Of a stretch of DNA of 32,034 bases, positions 18,214 through 24,580 are shown in pieces. The translations under genes were made by a program, and so were the position numbers. This DNA is from Bryobacterales bacterium. GTDB lineage: Bacteria > Acidobacteriota > Terriglobia > Bryobacterales > Bryobacteraceae. The stretch lies in assembly GCA_947467395.1 (NCBI GenBank), contig CANIIC010000025.1, forward strand, positions 1 to 32,034. The letters run 5' to 3'. A model generated the notes under the pieces. That model was not told the origin of the DNA, ran no database searches, and was given only the letters and a program-made list of their open reading frames with translations. Each line of letters opens with the position of its first letter. Within the stretch, counting starts at the first letter, position 1.

Positions 18214-18276
18214 ACGCCAGTCGCGTCGATGAGCCTCCGATCAAGAGATTGGATGGTAGATCGAAGCGACTGGCGT
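18214..18276. repeat. Long imperfect inverted repeat spanning the start region of the sigma-54 activator gene
   Basis: Left arm 18214..18230 ACGCCAGTCGCGTCGAT; right arm 18260..18276 ATCGAAGCGACTGGCGT; 16 of 17 positions complementary; 29-nt loop containing a further CCGATC/GATTGG pairing. Confidence 0.75.
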
Positions 18277-19233
18277 GATCTTTTAGTGGGCGACTCCCCG
18301 GCGATGCTGCGCACTGCGGAGGTGATTGAGCGCGTGGCGGCGCGACGCGCCACCGTGCTGATCACCGGCGAAACCGGCTCAGGCAAAGAGATGGTCGCGC
18401 GCGCGCTGCATCAGGCCAGCCCGCGCGCTGCGTATGGCATGGTGGTAGTCAATGCGGCCGCGCTACCGGAGCACTTGATCGAAGCCGAGTTGTTCGGGCA
18501 CATTAAGGGCGCTTTCACCGGGGCCGTGCAGCATCGCCTGGGCCGGTTTGAGCAGGCGCATCGCTCGACGCTATTCCTGGACGAAATCGGCGATCTGCCG
18601 CTCGACATGCAGACCAAGCTGCTGCGCTTCCTGCAAGAACGCGAGTTCCAGCGCGTCGGCAGTTCCGATACATTACGCGTGGATGTGCGCTTGATCGCGG
18701 CGACGAATGTGGATCTGATGAAGCGCGTGGAGGAAGGGAAGTTCCGCGAGGACCTGTACTACCGCTTGAACGTGGTGCCGATCGTCACGCCCCCGTTGCG
18801 CGAACGCGTCGAAGACATCCCGTTGCTGGCGCGGCATTTTGTGCGGAAGGTCTGCGCGCTAGAACAGATCCCGTTGCGGCAGCTCACGCCGGAAGCCATC
18901 GCGCGGCTGCAGGAGCTCGCGTGGCCGGGCAACGTGCGCCAACTGGAAAACGCGATTGAGATGGCGGTCGCCCTGAGTGGGGATCGCGAAGAATTAACCG
19001 CGGCCGATTTCGGCCTGCCCGTCCAGGCTCGGTCCTTGCCGGGTCCCGTTCGGGAAGCTCCCAGTCCGGAGACGGGGTTGGATTTCGAGCAAACGGTCAG
19101 TCACCTGGAACGGCAACTGCTGGAGGACGCCTTGCGGCAAACTCACGGCAACAAGAGCGCCGCGGCGGAATTGTTAGGACTGAAGCGAACTACACTCACC
19201 GCAAAACTGCGGGCACTGGGAGCCGCCGCCTAA
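18229..19233 (+). CDS. Sigma-54-dependent transcriptional activator (AAA+ and Fis HTH, no N-terminal sensor domain)
   Basis: GETGSGKEMVARALH (Walker A), ELFGHIKGAFTGAVQHRLGRFEQAHRSTLFLDEIGDLPLDMQTKLLRFLQ (GAFTGA), WPGNVRQLENAIEMAV, HTH NKSAAAELLGLKRTTLTAKLR. ATG 18253 in the same frame is an alternative start. Confidence 0.93.
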   Translation: MSLRSRDWMVDRSDWRDLLVGDSPAMLRTAEVIERVAARRATVLITGETGSGKEMVARALHQASPRAAYGMVVVNAAALPEHLIEAELFGHIKGAFTGAVQHRLGRFEQAHRSTLFLDEIGDLPLDMQTKLLRFLQEREFQRVGSSDTLRVDVRLIAATNVDLMKRVEEGKFREDLYYRLNVVPIVTPPLRERVEDIPLLARHFVRKVCALEQIPLRQLTPEAIARLQELAWPGNVRQLENAIEMAVALSGDREELTAADFGLPVQARSLPGPVREAPSPETGLDFEQTVSHLERQLLEDALRQTHGNKSAAAELLGLKRTTLTAKLRALGAAA

Positions 19234-19234
19234 A

Positions 19235-19837
19235 TTAAATGAGGTGACCCATCTTCTCGCGCTTGGTGCGCAAGTAGCCCTCGGTGGAATCGACGGCGTC
19301 GACCACTGCAGGTACACGCTCGGCGACCGTGATTCCAGCCTTTTCCAGAGCTTCCAGTTTCTGCGGGTTGTTCGACATGAACCGCACCGACTTCAACCCC
19401 AGAAACTGCAGGATCTCCACCGGCATCCGGTAGCCCCGCAAATCCGCTGCAAACCCGAGCTGTTCGTTGGCCTCGACCGTGTCCAGTCCGCGATCCTGTA
19501 ACTCGTAGGCACGCAACTTGTTCAGCAGTCCGATCCCGCGACCTTCCTGGTGTTCGTAGACCACCACGCCCCGGCCTTCGCGGCTGATGGTTTCGAGAGC
19601 CAGTTCCAACTGCGCGCGGCAATCGCACCGCAGGCTGTGAAACACGTCGCCCGTTAGGCACTCAGAGTGGATGCGAACCAGCGGTGGAGGACCCTGGGTA
19701 ATGTCGCCCATCACCAGAACCACGGCCTCCTCGACTACTTCGCCGGCCCGCCATTCGAAGCCTAGAATCCGGAATCGTCCGTAACGGCTTGGAAAATCGG
19801 CCTCAGCGACCTTGCGCAGATGGGTTGTCGGGGTCAA
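19235..19837 (-). CDS. ribA: GTP cyclohydrolase II (stand-alone RibA)
   Basis: VRIHSECLTGDVFHSLRCDCRAQLELALETISREGRGVVVYEHQEGRGIGLLNKLRAYELQDRGLDTVEANEQLGFAADLRGY is the GCHII signature with its Zn Cys residues. TTG start. Confidence 0.95.
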   Translation of the reverse strand: MTPTTHLRKVAEADFPSRYGRFRILGFEWRAGEVVEEAVVLVMGDITQGPPPLVRIHSECLTGDVFHSLRCDCRAQLELALETISREGRGVVVYEHQEGRGIGLLNKLRAYELQDRGLDTVEANEQLGFAADLRGYRMPVEILQFLGLKSVRFMSNNPQKLEALEKAGITVAERVPAVVDAVDSTEGYLRTKREKMGHLI

Positions 19838-19872
19838 CCTTCAGTATAATTGGACGCGAGGACTCCCGACGA

Positions 19873-21231
19873 GTGCCCCCACAGACCGCACAGCAACTAG
19901 TTCTGCTTTGGGTGAAGCTCGCGGTCGCGGCATCGCTGGCCAGCATCCTCACCCGTTCCGCCGCATTCCAGCGAATGTTGCTCCGCGAGGAGCGCACGTT
20001 GGCCCAGCGCGTCAAAATGGCGCTGGTCTGCGCCGGTATCTTTGGTACGGGCGTGCTGACCCGCGTTCTAACCAGCGCGTTCCCTGCTCCCGACGCCTAT
20101 CAGGCGCTCGACCTTGGCCTCGAAGGCAGCCTGGTGATGGGGATGCTAGGCGGCTATGTTACCGGCATGCTGGCCGGGATCCTGATTTCGCTGCCCGCCA
20201 TGTTTCTGGGCGGCGAACTCATGTCCATGCCGTTGCTCGCTGCTGCCGGGGTCATGGGCGGCCTGCTCCGCGACCTTGCTCCGGACAAGGAATACATCTG
20301 GAAGATCACCCCGTTTCCTGAGCTGAACCTATACCGCCTCCTCCGCAAACCCGACTTCCGGCTCCCACTGTTCGGCGTGACTTCCGTGGGCGTGATCCTG
20401 CTGGCCGAGCTGTTGCGCTCCACCATCGCCCAGCGCGTCCCCAATCAGGGCGTCTTCGCGTTGCAGAAGACCTGGGGCGCCATGACCGGGTGGATGGTGG
20501 TCGCCCAATACGCGACTACAGTCTTCGCCACGATCCTGCCGATCAAGATCTGGCACTCCAGCCGCTACGAGAAATTGCTGGAGCAACAGCAGATGCGGCT
20601 CAATGAGGCGCGGTTGGCCGCTTTGTCGAGCCAGATCAACCCCCACTTCCTGTTCAATACGTTGAACTCCGTGGCCTCACTGATCCGGCAGGACCCGGAG
20701 CAGGCTCGGCAGGTGGTCTACAAACTGTCGAAGATTCTGCGCAGGCTGCTGCGGAAGCAGGACAATCTGGTCACGTTGCGCGAAGAACTGAGCTTCATTG
20801 ACGACTATTTGGCGATTGAGATGGTGCGCTTCGGCGACAAGCTCCATTTCGTGAAGGACGTGGAGCCGGATTGCCTGGACATGCTGGTGCCCAGCATGCT
20901 GCTGCAGCCCCTGGTGGAAAACAGCATTCGTCACGGGCTGGCCAGCAAAGTTGCCGGCGGCACGATTCGCGTGCGCGGCACCAAAGCCGACAAACGACTG
21001 CAAATCACCGTGGAAGACGACGGTGTGGGTATCCCGGAAGCCAAGCTGGCGCGCCTGTTTGAGAACGGAATCGGCGTAAATAACGTGAATGAGCGGCTGA
21101 AAGTGCTGTACGGCGACAATTACAAGATGTGGATCGACAGCCGTCCCAGCGAAGGAACCAGCACGGGGGTTGAAATCCCAGAGCAAGTCAGTGGTAACGT
21201 AGTGGAAGTCGAAATGGCAGGGAAGAGATAG
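19873..21231 (+). CDS. LytS/YehU-type sensor histidine kinase
   Basis: Multi-TM N-terminus, then LSSQINPHFLFNTLNSVASLIRQDPEQARQVVYKLSKILRRLLR (His_kinase family) and VEDDGVGIPEAKLARLFENGIGVNNVNERLKVLYG (HATPase). GTG 19873 preferred over the ORF-track start at 19789, which lies inside divergent ribA. Confidence 0.88.
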   Translation: MPPQTAQQLVLLWVKLAVAASLASILTRSAAFQRMLLREERTLAQRVKMALVCAGIFGTGVLTRVLTSAFPAPDAYQALDLGLEGSLVMGMLGGYVTGMLAGILISLPAMFLGGELMSMPLLAAAGVMGGLLRDLAPDKEYIWKITPFPELNLYRLLRKPDFRLPLFGVTSVGVILLAELLRSTIAQRVPNQGVFALQKTWGAMTGWMVVAQYATTVFATILPIKIWHSSRYEKLLEQQQMRLNEARLAALSSQINPHFLFNTLNSVASLIRQDPEQARQVVYKLSKILRRLLRKQDNLVTLREELSFIDDYLAIEMVRFGDKLHFVKDVEPDCLDMLVPSMLLQPLVENSIRHGLASKVAGGTIRVRGTKADKRLQITVEDDGVGIPEAKLARLFENGIGVNNVNERLKVLYGDNYKMWIDSRPSEGTSTGVEIPEQVSGNVVEVEMAGKR

Positions 21232-22091: not shown

Positions 22092-23336
22092 ATGGCGGAT
22101 GAGATTCTGTTCCTCACCGAACTTGTGGGCCTGCGGGTCTTCGACCTGCGTGGCCGCAGGATCGGTGTGGTCAAAGACGCCGCGCTGGTGCCCCTCGTCC
22201 ATCCCGTCCGCATCGATCGCTTCCTGATCGGCGGCGATTCCGCGTGGTTCACCATCCGGCACGACCAAGTCCGGACCATCGATCTCACCGGGATTCATCT
22301 TCGCGATGAGACCCTAACTCCTTATCATTCAGACGAATACATGTTGCGCCTGTCGCGCGACCTGCTCGACCAACAGATCATCGATTCCGAAGGCCGCAAA
22401 GTGGTCCGGGTTACCGATCTGACCTTTGTGGTTAAGGAAGAGGGTGGCGGGCAAGTGTTGCTCATCGACGACGTGGATATCGGGCTGCGGAGTATTTTCC
22501 GGCGCTTGGTGCAGGGTGTGCTCCCGCGCCCGTGGATCCGCAAACTGCAAGGACCGATCCCGCCGAATTCGATCCGCTGGACGGTCTGCAACATCCTGGA
22601 GCACGACCCGCAGCGCCGCCTGCGCCTGAACATCTCCAACAAGCTGCTGGAGCAGATGCATCCGGCTGACTTGGCCGACATCGTGGAAGAATTGGGCCCT
22701 GAAGATCGTCAATCGATTTTCGAAAACATGGATCGCGAGGCCGCCGCCGAAGCGTTGGCCGAAGTGGATCCCGACATTCAGGCCAGCATCCTCGAGTCCC
22801 TCGAAGCCGAGATGGCAGCCGAGATCGTCGAAGAGATGTCTCCCGACCAAGCCGCCGACGCCCTATCGGAACTCGACGAACGCGCCAGCGAAGAGATCCT
22901 CGAGGAGATGGAGCACGAGGGTCAGGAAGAAGTGCGCGAGCTGCTGGAATTTGAAGAAGACTCCGCCGGCGGCATGATGAACACCGAATACGTGGCACTG
23001 CAACGCACCGCGACCGTCGCTGATGCGGTCGAGGCGCTGCGTTCCCTGGAGGAGGATGTTGCTGACTCCATCAACACCATCTTCGTCGTCGATGCCGAGG
23101 ATCATCTGGAAGCGGCCATCCCCGTGGGCCGTCTGTTCCTGCATGACCCGCAGGCTCCGCTGGAAAAACTGATCTCTGAAAATAAGCGTTCTGTGCCCGT
23201 CGATGAATCGCAAGACCGCGTGGTCGAAATGTTCGACAAGTACAACTTGCTGTCGCTGGCCGTCCTCGACAAGGACAAGAAACTAGCCGGCGTGATTCAT
23301 GTGGACGACATCGTCACAGTGTTGAGGCAACGGTGA
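22092..23336 (+). CDS. Cytosolic regulator: PRC-barrel-like N-terminus, MgtE N-domain and CBS domains, no membrane domain
   Basis: PRC-barrel-like ELVGLRVFDLRGRRIGVVKDAAL and LLDQQIIDSEGRKVVRVTDLTF; MgtE_N-like HPADLADIVEELGPEDRQSIFENMDREAAAEALAEVDPDIQASILESL; MgtE linker/CBS EFEEDSAGGMMNTEYVALQRTATVADAVEALRS. No hydrophobic TM segments. Confidence 0.85.
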   Translation: MADEILFLTELVGLRVFDLRGRRIGVVKDAALVPLVHPVRIDRFLIGGDSAWFTIRHDQVRTIDLTGIHLRDETLTPYHSDEYMLRLSRDLLDQQIIDSEGRKVVRVTDLTFVVKEEGGGQVLLIDDVDIGLRSIFRRLVQGVLPRPWIRKLQGPIPPNSIRWTVCNILEHDPQRRLRLNISNKLLEQMHPADLADIVEELGPEDRQSIFENMDREAAAEALAEVDPDIQASILESLEAEMAAEIVEEMSPDQAADALSELDERASEEILEEMEHEGQEEVRELLEFEEDSAGGMMNTEYVALQRTATVADAVEALRSLEEDVADSINTIFVVDAEDHLEAAIPVGRLFLHDPQAPLEKLISENKRSVPVDESQDRVVEMFDKYNLLSLAVLDKDKKLAGVIHVDDIVTVLRQR

Positions 23337-24580
23337 CGATCTTTAAACGATTCAAGTATCACTGGGCCGTCTTCTTCTCCGTCATCGGGCCGGGCTTCAT
23401 TACGGCCATGGTCGACAACGACGCGGGCGGCATCCTCACGTATTCGCAGGCTGGCGCGAAGTATGGCTACCTGCCGCTCTGGACTTTGCTCCCGATCACA
23501 ATCCTGCTGATCGTCACCCAGGAGATGTGCTCCCGCATGGGCGCGGTTACGGAAAAGGGTCTGTCCGATCTCATTCGTGAAGAGTTCGGCCTGCGCACTA
23601 CATTCGTCGTCATGGTGCTGCTGGTATTGGCGAACCTGACCAACGTCATGGCGAACTTCGCCGGCATTGCGACCTCGCTGGAGTTGTTCGGGATCTCGCG
23701 CTACATCACCGTTCCATTGGGCGCCGCCGCCGTGTGGTTCATGATCGTCAAAGGCACCTACGCTTCCGTGGAAAAACTGTTCCTGTGGGCGTGCGTCGTC
23801 TATATCGCCTACATCGTCTCCGGTGTACTGGTGGAGCCGAACTGGAAAGAAGCGGCCATATATAGCGTGAAGCCCGTGCTGCTGTTTGACCGCGGTTATC
23901 TGGCGATGTTGATCGGCATGGTCGGCACTTCCGTGGCCCCCTGGATGCAGTTCTATCTGCAAGCGGCTGTCGTGGAAAAGGGCGTCACCGCCAAGGAATA
24001 CAAAGAATCGCGCATCGAAGTCATCGTGGGCTGCATCGCGATGACCATCATCGCGTTCTTCATCATCGTGGCCTGCGCCGGGGCCATCTACAAAGTTCAG
24101 CCGCGCGAGATTCAGAGCGCGGAACAAGCCGCGTTGGGCCTCAAGCCCTTCGGACAATACGCGTACTTGCTGTTCGCCGCCGGCCTGTTCAACGCCTCGC
24201 TGTTCGCTGCCTGCATCCTGCCACTGTCCACGTCCTACTCGGTGTGCGAGGGCCTGGGCTTTGAATCGGGTGTGAACAAGAAGTTCCGCGAAGCCCCGAT
24301 CTTTTACTGGCTGTTCACGTTGCTGATTGTCGTGGGTGCGGGACTGGTGCTGATCCCGAACTTCCCCCTGGTGAAGATGATCCTGCTCTCGCAGGTGATC
24401 AACGGCATCCTGCTGCCGCTGATCCTGATCTTCATGCTGCTGTTGGTCAACAAAACCAAGCTGATGCACGAGTGGGTGAACTCGCACTTCTACAACGTGG
24501 TCGCCTGGATCGCGGTCGCCGTCATGATCGGATTGACCATGGCGCTGGTAGCCTTGTCGATCCAAGACATGTTGGCCTAG
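23333..24580 (+). CDS. NRAMP-family (SLC11-like) metal transporter with non-canonical metal-site motifs
   Basis: GPGFITAMVDNDAGGILTYSQAGAKYGY aligns with the NRAMP TM1 region ([25 protein letters not shown] in MntH); TM6 region GMVGTSVAPWMQFYLQAA; multi-pass hydrophobic protein. Overlaps the upstream regulator by 4 nt. Confidence 0.88.
   Translation: MTIFKRFKYHWAVFFSVIGPGFITAMVDNDAGGILTYSQAGAKYGYLPLWTLLPITILLIVTQEMCSRMGAVTEKGLSDLIREEFGLRTTFVVMVLLVLANLTNVMANFAGIATSLELFGISRYITVPLGAAAVWFMIVKGTYASVEKLFLWACVVYIAYIVSGVLVEPNWKEAAIYSVKPVLLFDRGYLAMLIGMVGTSVAPWMQFYLQAAVVEKGVTAKEYKESRIEVIVGCIAMTIIAFFIIVACAGAIYKVQPREIQSAEQAALGLKPFGQYAYLLFAAGLFNASLFAACILPLSTSYSVCEGLGFESGVNKKFREAPIFYWLFTLLIVVGAGLVLIPNFPLVKMILLSQVINGILLPLILIFMLLLVNKTKLMHEWVNSHFYNVVAWIAVAVMIGLTMALVALSIQDMLA

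Follow-up and report, generated by a model that had tools for sequence, protein, structure and literature searches.

What is a relative of the cytosolic domain of the MgtE channel doing as a free-standing protein, encoded by a gene that runs directly into that of an NRAMP-family transporter? The question is raised by two genes in a 32,034-nucleotide stretch of DNA from a Bryobacterales bacterium (Acidobacteriota), the whole of which is here called the window. The soluble protein is referred to as P0001 and the transporter as P0002, and their features are collected in Table 1. Among named genomes, most of the closest relatives of the window are MAGs from the Bryobacterales, with identities of 73-78%. 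A preliminary description of the locus had assigned PRC, MgtE_N and CBS segments, and no transmembrane segments, to the first open reading frame, and had its stop codon overlapping the start of the NRAMP-family frame by 4 nt. Both observations are correct. All three domain types are matched by Pfam, the CBS match being in two stretches; no transmembrane segment is found in P0001, where no stretch of 19 residues rises above a Kyte-Doolittle value of 1.14; and the coordinates of the overlap are exact. Given this overlap, and the GAGG motif inside the P0001 gene, translational coupling of the two genes is plausible.

Table 1. Locations of the features discussed. Positions are those of the window unless a locus or contig is named.
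Feature	Location	Strand	Description
P0001 gene	22092..23336	+	414 aa; soluble protein with PRC, second beta, MgtE_N and CBS-pair domains; putative Mg2+-sensing partner
PRC-barrel domain of P0001	22104..22340	+	residues about 5-83 (Pfam PRC 5-29); beta strands in the model; end approximate
Second beta-rich domain of P0001	22338..22595	+	residues about 83-168; motif DLLDxQIIDxxGRKVVRVNDV; beta strands also in the model; no Pfam match
MgtE_N domain of P0001	22656..22961	+	residues 189-290; Pfam E=1.2e-26; contains E220, D252, D256
CBS pair of P0001	22962..23333	+	residues 291-414; contains D406; protein terminates here, no plug helix
Shine-Dalgarno-like motif for P0002	23324..23327	+	GAGG, within the P0001 gene, 5 nt before the GTG; by sequence reading
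Overlap of P0001 stop and P0002 start	23333..23336	+	4 nt, GTGA: GTG 23333-23335, TGA 23334-23336
P0002 gene	23333..24580	+	415 aa; GTG start; NRMT/NrmT-clade SLC11 transporter
P0003	L001 1342-3225 (match G000:C8:31701-32762)		canonical NRAMP of the same genome
PF13524 glycosyltransferase genes	L118 4880-5977; L124 4786-5868; L132 4931-5995; L109 2816-4120		between sensor and transporter genes in several Terriglobales

P0002 is matched by the Pfam Nramp family (E=1e-88) and has 11 hydrophobic segments on the Kyte-Doolittle scale. The solved structure closest to it is that of the Mg2+ transporter EleNRMT (PDB 7qia), which aligns over the full length with E=4.2e-108, whereas MntH structures match at E=8e-19 or weaker. 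The metal site had been described as altered, and this is so: helix 1 carries D30-A-G-G33 and helix 6 carries T199-S-V-A202, with G33 and T199 invariant in the 23 aligned homologues. However, there is nothing new in the alteration, which is the published NRMT signature of DxxG-TxxA/T in place of DxxN and A/CxxM (Ramanadane et al., 2022, PMC8806188). Because the DxxG/TxxA motif is matched, the altered site can be recognized as the known signature of a Mg2+/Mn2+ carrier that works without proton coupling, and the transport of both Mn2+ and Mg2+ by EleNRMT itself is not proton-coupled (PMC8806188). All of the EleNRMT binding-site positions that were checked are kept, D30, G33, T199, A202 and Q354 corresponding to Asp55, the motif Gly, Thr224, the motif Ala and Gln379. 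With canonical MntH/NRAMP proteins such as DraNramp and EcoDMT, P0002 shares the SLC11 fold and the helix-1 aspartate, but it lacks the DPGN and MPH motifs and the helix-6b histidines, both of these proton-path positions being replaced (W204 and L209). In the tree, EleNRMT lies inside the NDAGG clade, apart from the group with a DDDPSG site. Judged by its sequence, P0002 is a member of the NRMT/NrmT clade. The idea that it is a new kind of NRAMP was rejected on the strength of the EleNRMT match, the signature and the site residues, which make it an ordinary NRMT. A difference from EleNRMT is found on helix 3 near the metal site, where P0002 has N108 instead of Glu133; Asn occupies this position also in the closest relative (L004) and in L068, and nearly all of the other aligned homologues have Glu.

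The C-terminal ~230 residues of P0001 (183-412) resemble the cytosolic N and CBS domains of MgtE (2yvy, 2zy9) in fold, in sequence and in the residues of sites Mg4, Mg6 and Mg7. The P0001 structure predicted by AlphaFold2 has a mean pLDDT of 86 and a pTM of 0.51, so that the relative placement of its domains is unsure, and residues 183-412 match the Mg2+-bound cytosolic domain 2yvy with a Foldseek E=2.6e-19 and a TMt of 0.81. Using the functional sites described for TtMgtE (PMC5882242, PMC5529423), we find that three of the sensor sites are retained: E220 corresponds to E59 (Mg7), D252 and D406 to D91 and D247 (both Mg4), and D256 to D95 (Mg6). The Mg5 pair (D226/D250) is absent, these positions being N385 and T409, and the ATP-site residues Y170, R187, D188, N203 and F227 are replaced by T329, G346, R347, S362 and L386. 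The chain stops at residue 414, before the MgtE plug helix (E258, D259). The pattern is general in the main group (group 1): among 87 partner proteins the Mg6 position is D in 86/87, the two Mg4 positions are D in 67/87 (D91) and 73/87 (D247), and the Mg7 position is acidic in 73/87; at the two Mg5 positions N and S predominate, and most of the ATP site is occupied by other residues. By comparison, D91, D247 and D250 are conserved in 20 full MgtE proteins from the Acidobacteriota, where D95 is rare (4/20). D247 is also the general aspartate of CBS domains, and its conservation is therefore weak evidence. In its sequence, P0001 resembles a sensor in which the Mg2+ contacts between N and CBS domains have survived and the parts with which MgtE pushes on its pore have been shed. 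Lacking the plug helix, the Mg5 residues and the ATP-site residues, it could not copy the gating mechanism of MgtE whole.

P0001 also differs from MgtE in being encoded apart from any channel, in a genome without the channel domain, and in carrying PRC-type sequence at its N-terminus. The PRC domain is found by Pfam in 27/27 members of the P0001 family. The most invariant motif of the family is not in the sensor but in the second beta domain, consisting of DLLDxQIIDxxGRKVVRVNDV together with RR; in this domain D93, Q95, D98, V107, D109, R137, R138, I161 and W163 are invariant in the 27 sequences. The second beta domain may itself be PRC-like.

Evidence that the two proteins belong together comes from their inheritance. 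We surveyed 297 genomes from the phylum Acidobacteriota, in which strong homologues of P0002 (at least 352 bits) are separated from a weaker group (at most 244 bits), and the scores of P0001 homologues leave a gap from 166 to 136 bits, on the lower side of which most are full MgtE proteins that match only residues ~184-413. Strong P0002 homologues and P0001-type homologues occur in the identical 69 of the 297 genomes, from 36 genera, and in none of the 69 is one found without the other. The corresponding Fisher value is 2e-69, which is not a calibrated probability because the genomes are related. For 50 of the 70 transporter copies the partner gene is at most 8 kb away and has the same orientation, and for the other 20 it is on another contig or far away; linkage therefore does not account for the obligate co-inheritance. 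G141 and G189, which belong to a single genus, have MgtE and neither of the two genes.

When the neighborhoods of NRAMP homologues are surveyed for MgtE_N-CBS genes, as had been suggested, linkage is seen to be conserved across phyla. In an independent set of named genomes the partner is present at 61/80 loci, always on the same strand and 60 times upstream, and these loci include Geobacteraceae, Omnitrophota, Nitrospirota and Syntrophaceae. The order is reversed in another NDAGG clade, a distant one, where the partner follows directly downstream at 13/13 intact loci. NRAMP relatives with the DDDPSG site have a partner nearby in 0/9 cases. Taken together, these results support a functional link between P0001 and P0002. 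Partners in this second clade (L045-L055, L057, L064) keep the ATP-site residues Y170, R187 and F227 (as Y) and have lost D91, the reverse of the pattern in the group of the window. A natural fusion of partner and transporter would have pointed to direct contact, but none was seen at the loci that were examined; the long open frames at L068, L069, L070 and L111 were considered as fusions and rejected, being separate ORFs. In several Terriglobales the sensor and transporter genes are separated by a glycosyltransferase gene (PF13524) on the same strand.

Further links with magnesium come from the rest of the genome and from relatives. The MgtE transmembrane domain (PF01769) is absent from P0001 and from its whole genome, and it is found in 11/69 genomes that have the pair as against 164/228 of the others, a difference that is phylogenetically confounded. 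A weak second MgtE_N match in the same genome (G000:C229) scores 24.5 bits. Under strict filters, a single M-box, the Mg2+ riboswitch, was found in the 297 genomes, and it stands 74 nt before the pair in G269, the NrmT of which shares 63% identity with P0002. In all, M-box riboswitches precede the operons of nine relatives, namely three from the Acidobacteriota (G269, L113 and L162) together with L145, L146, L148, L150, L151 and L155, and the M-box-bearing loci bracket the clade of the window in the tree, which does not include L113 and L162. No M-box is found in the window, in its own genome or at 11 related Bryobacterales loci, and a search for an M-box or other RNA element before the window operon gave nothing, the 77-nt intergenic gap being too short for an M-box. 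The genome also encodes a second NRAMP (P0003), which is canonical: its DPGN and MPH motifs are intact, it is extended at the C-terminus, and it is a natural candidate for Mn2+ transport. By sequence reading, the extension resembles a universal stress protein domain. The other Mg2+ route of this organism is possibly a divergent, 546-aa CorA-like protein (L185 298-1938, G000:C9), which has a GMNF motif but only a partial CorA match of 30.5 bits.

The preliminary description had presented the pair as a hybrid in which an MgtE sensor is recruited to an NRAMP transporter for Mg2+. The functional link stands, on co-occurrence in 69/69 genomes and linkage across phyla, and so does a connection with Mg2+, on the NRMT site, the M-boxes of relatives and the retained sensor residues. 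As a new idea it does not survive, because the pairing and the hypothesis of feedback are both to be found in Shin et al. (2014, PMC4072509). That paper names the NrmT clade, states that most members adjoin a gene for a homologue of the MgtE cytosolic domain, ties the operons to the M-box, includes an Acidobacteriota example (Acidobacterium capsulatum), and puts forward cytoplasmic feedback regulation as speculation. The window contains the same two genes, with a 4-nt overlap and without the M-box, which is in any case confined to a subset of members. What is added here is co-inheritance that is almost without exception, and this feature, the PRC and second beta domains and the scarcity of MgtE are unmentioned in the passages of the 2014 paper considered here. 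In the passages searched of the later literature on NrmT/NRMT, the partner is not taken up; the structural paper on EleNRMT treats the transporter alone, and its main text contains no match for CBS or operon (PMC8806188).

We consider it somewhat more likely than not that the two genes of the operon together make up a system for Mg2+ uptake, in which an NRMT transporter is under feedback in trans from a dedicated Mg2+-sensing partner. P0002 would admit Mg2+ (and Mn2+) down its gradient without proton coupling, and its putative role in Mg2+ transport is suggested by the metal site, by the M-boxes of relatives and by the distribution of MgtE. When cytosolic Mg2+ is sufficient, P0001 would bind it between the N and CBS domains. 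Its N-terminal PRC-type and beta domains probably dock on the transporter or the membrane, and contact between the two proteins would be expected. In MgtE, the cytosolic domain closes the channel. The most likely action of Mg2+-loaded P0001 would similarly be negative feedback, slowing or closing P0002 much as the cytosolic domain of MgtE acts on its channel, but without a plug helix. That the physiological substrate in this species is mainly Mg2+ is inferred, as are the contact between the proteins, direct gating and the sign of the regulation. The proposal has to accommodate results that count against it. According to Shin et al. (2014, PMC4072509), the A. capsulatum NrmT gave a mainly Mn2+ phenotype in B. 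subtilis, its MgtE-like partner when co-expressed there added nothing to Mg2+ rescue, and C. acetobutylicum NrmT proteins were functional without a partner. The co-expression experiment would have been blind to a negative regulator, because it asked only whether the partner improves rescue. The lack of an M-box at the window operon and at the 11 Bryobacterales loci, the loss of the plug helix, the Mg5 residues and the ATP-site residues of MgtE, and the presence of the divergent CorA-like gene also count against the proposal.

The same experiments could be taken to mean that P0002 and its relatives in the phylum are mainly importers of Mn2+ or of divalent metals in general, P0001 then sensing Mn2+ or divalent load, or modulating specificity. 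A. capsulatum is the sole member of the phylum to have been tested, and its NrmT fully restored a mutant defective in Mn2+ import, but one defective in Mg2+ import only when Mg2+ was in the low millimolar range (PMC4072509); EleNRMT carries Mn2+ as well as Mg2+, and the window and its genome have no M-box. We nevertheless regard this explanation as rather unlikely, since the genome has a separate canonical NRAMP (P0003) for Mn2+, since M-boxes stand before relatives' operons in clades that bracket that of the window, including the three Acidobacteriota loci, and since MgtE is missing from most genomes with the pair, which would follow if the pair serves to supply Mg2+.

Other explanations concern P0001 rather than the metal. 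Its MgtE fold might be a scaffold, the protein being a structural, assembly, membrane-anchoring or metal-handover subunit that does not gate in response to Mg2+. The loss of the plug helix, Mg5 and the ATP-site residues would fit, as would the position of the most invariant motif outside the sensor and the loss of D91 in the second clade, where the rest is kept. However, the acidic Mg4, Mg6 and Mg7 positions are kept in most of the main group, and the Mg6 aspartate is held more strictly in partners than in full MgtE proteins of the same phylum, which makes this reading improbable. It is very improbable indeed that P0001 and P0002 serve the same process and never touch, with linkage and co-inheritance reflecting a shared part in Mg2+ homeostasis and P0001 acting, for example, on another target. 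The 20 unlinked copies, the intervening glycosyltransferase gene in several Terriglobales and the one co-expression test without effect (PMC4072509) are compatible with such an arrangement. Against it stand the absence of any genome, among the 69, with one gene and not the other, the translational overlap, and the existence of two opposite gene orders, each of which is kept tight.

Returning to the two-protein Mg2+ system, we would extend it to a broader reading only tentatively, as possible rather than probable: that proteins of the P0001 type are obligate regulatory subunits of NRMT carriers, a detachable MgtE sensor having moved from its channel to an unrelated LeuT-fold carrier, which it gates by PRC-type docking without a plug helix, and that the pair has replaced MgtE as the regulated entry for Mg2+ in much of the Acidobacteriota. 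If true, this would illustrate clearly how a sensor domain can switch its transporter partner in evolution. As to how NRMT Mg2+ carriers are controlled, the co-expression test of the 2014 paper was negative, and the MgtE-like fragment was left there without an explanation (PMC4072509). The advance is better evidence that the partner is obligate, and the strict co-inheritance, the retained sensor residues and the riboswitches of relatives make the question of control directly testable. They also suggest that NRMT structures solved alone may lack a regulatory subunit.

It may be added that positions 18229-21231 of the window form an unusual regulatory neighborhood, a sigma-54 activator with no receiver domain by Pfam adjoining a His_kinase-type (PF06580) histidine kinase. 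A tandem of two NrmT genes is present in two genomes (G257:C4:120184-122801 and L152). An odd observation on one of the Acidobacteriota MAG contigs (L113 12211-12512) is a strong Rfam match, of 70 bits, to 5_ureB_sRNA, a family known from Helicobacter.
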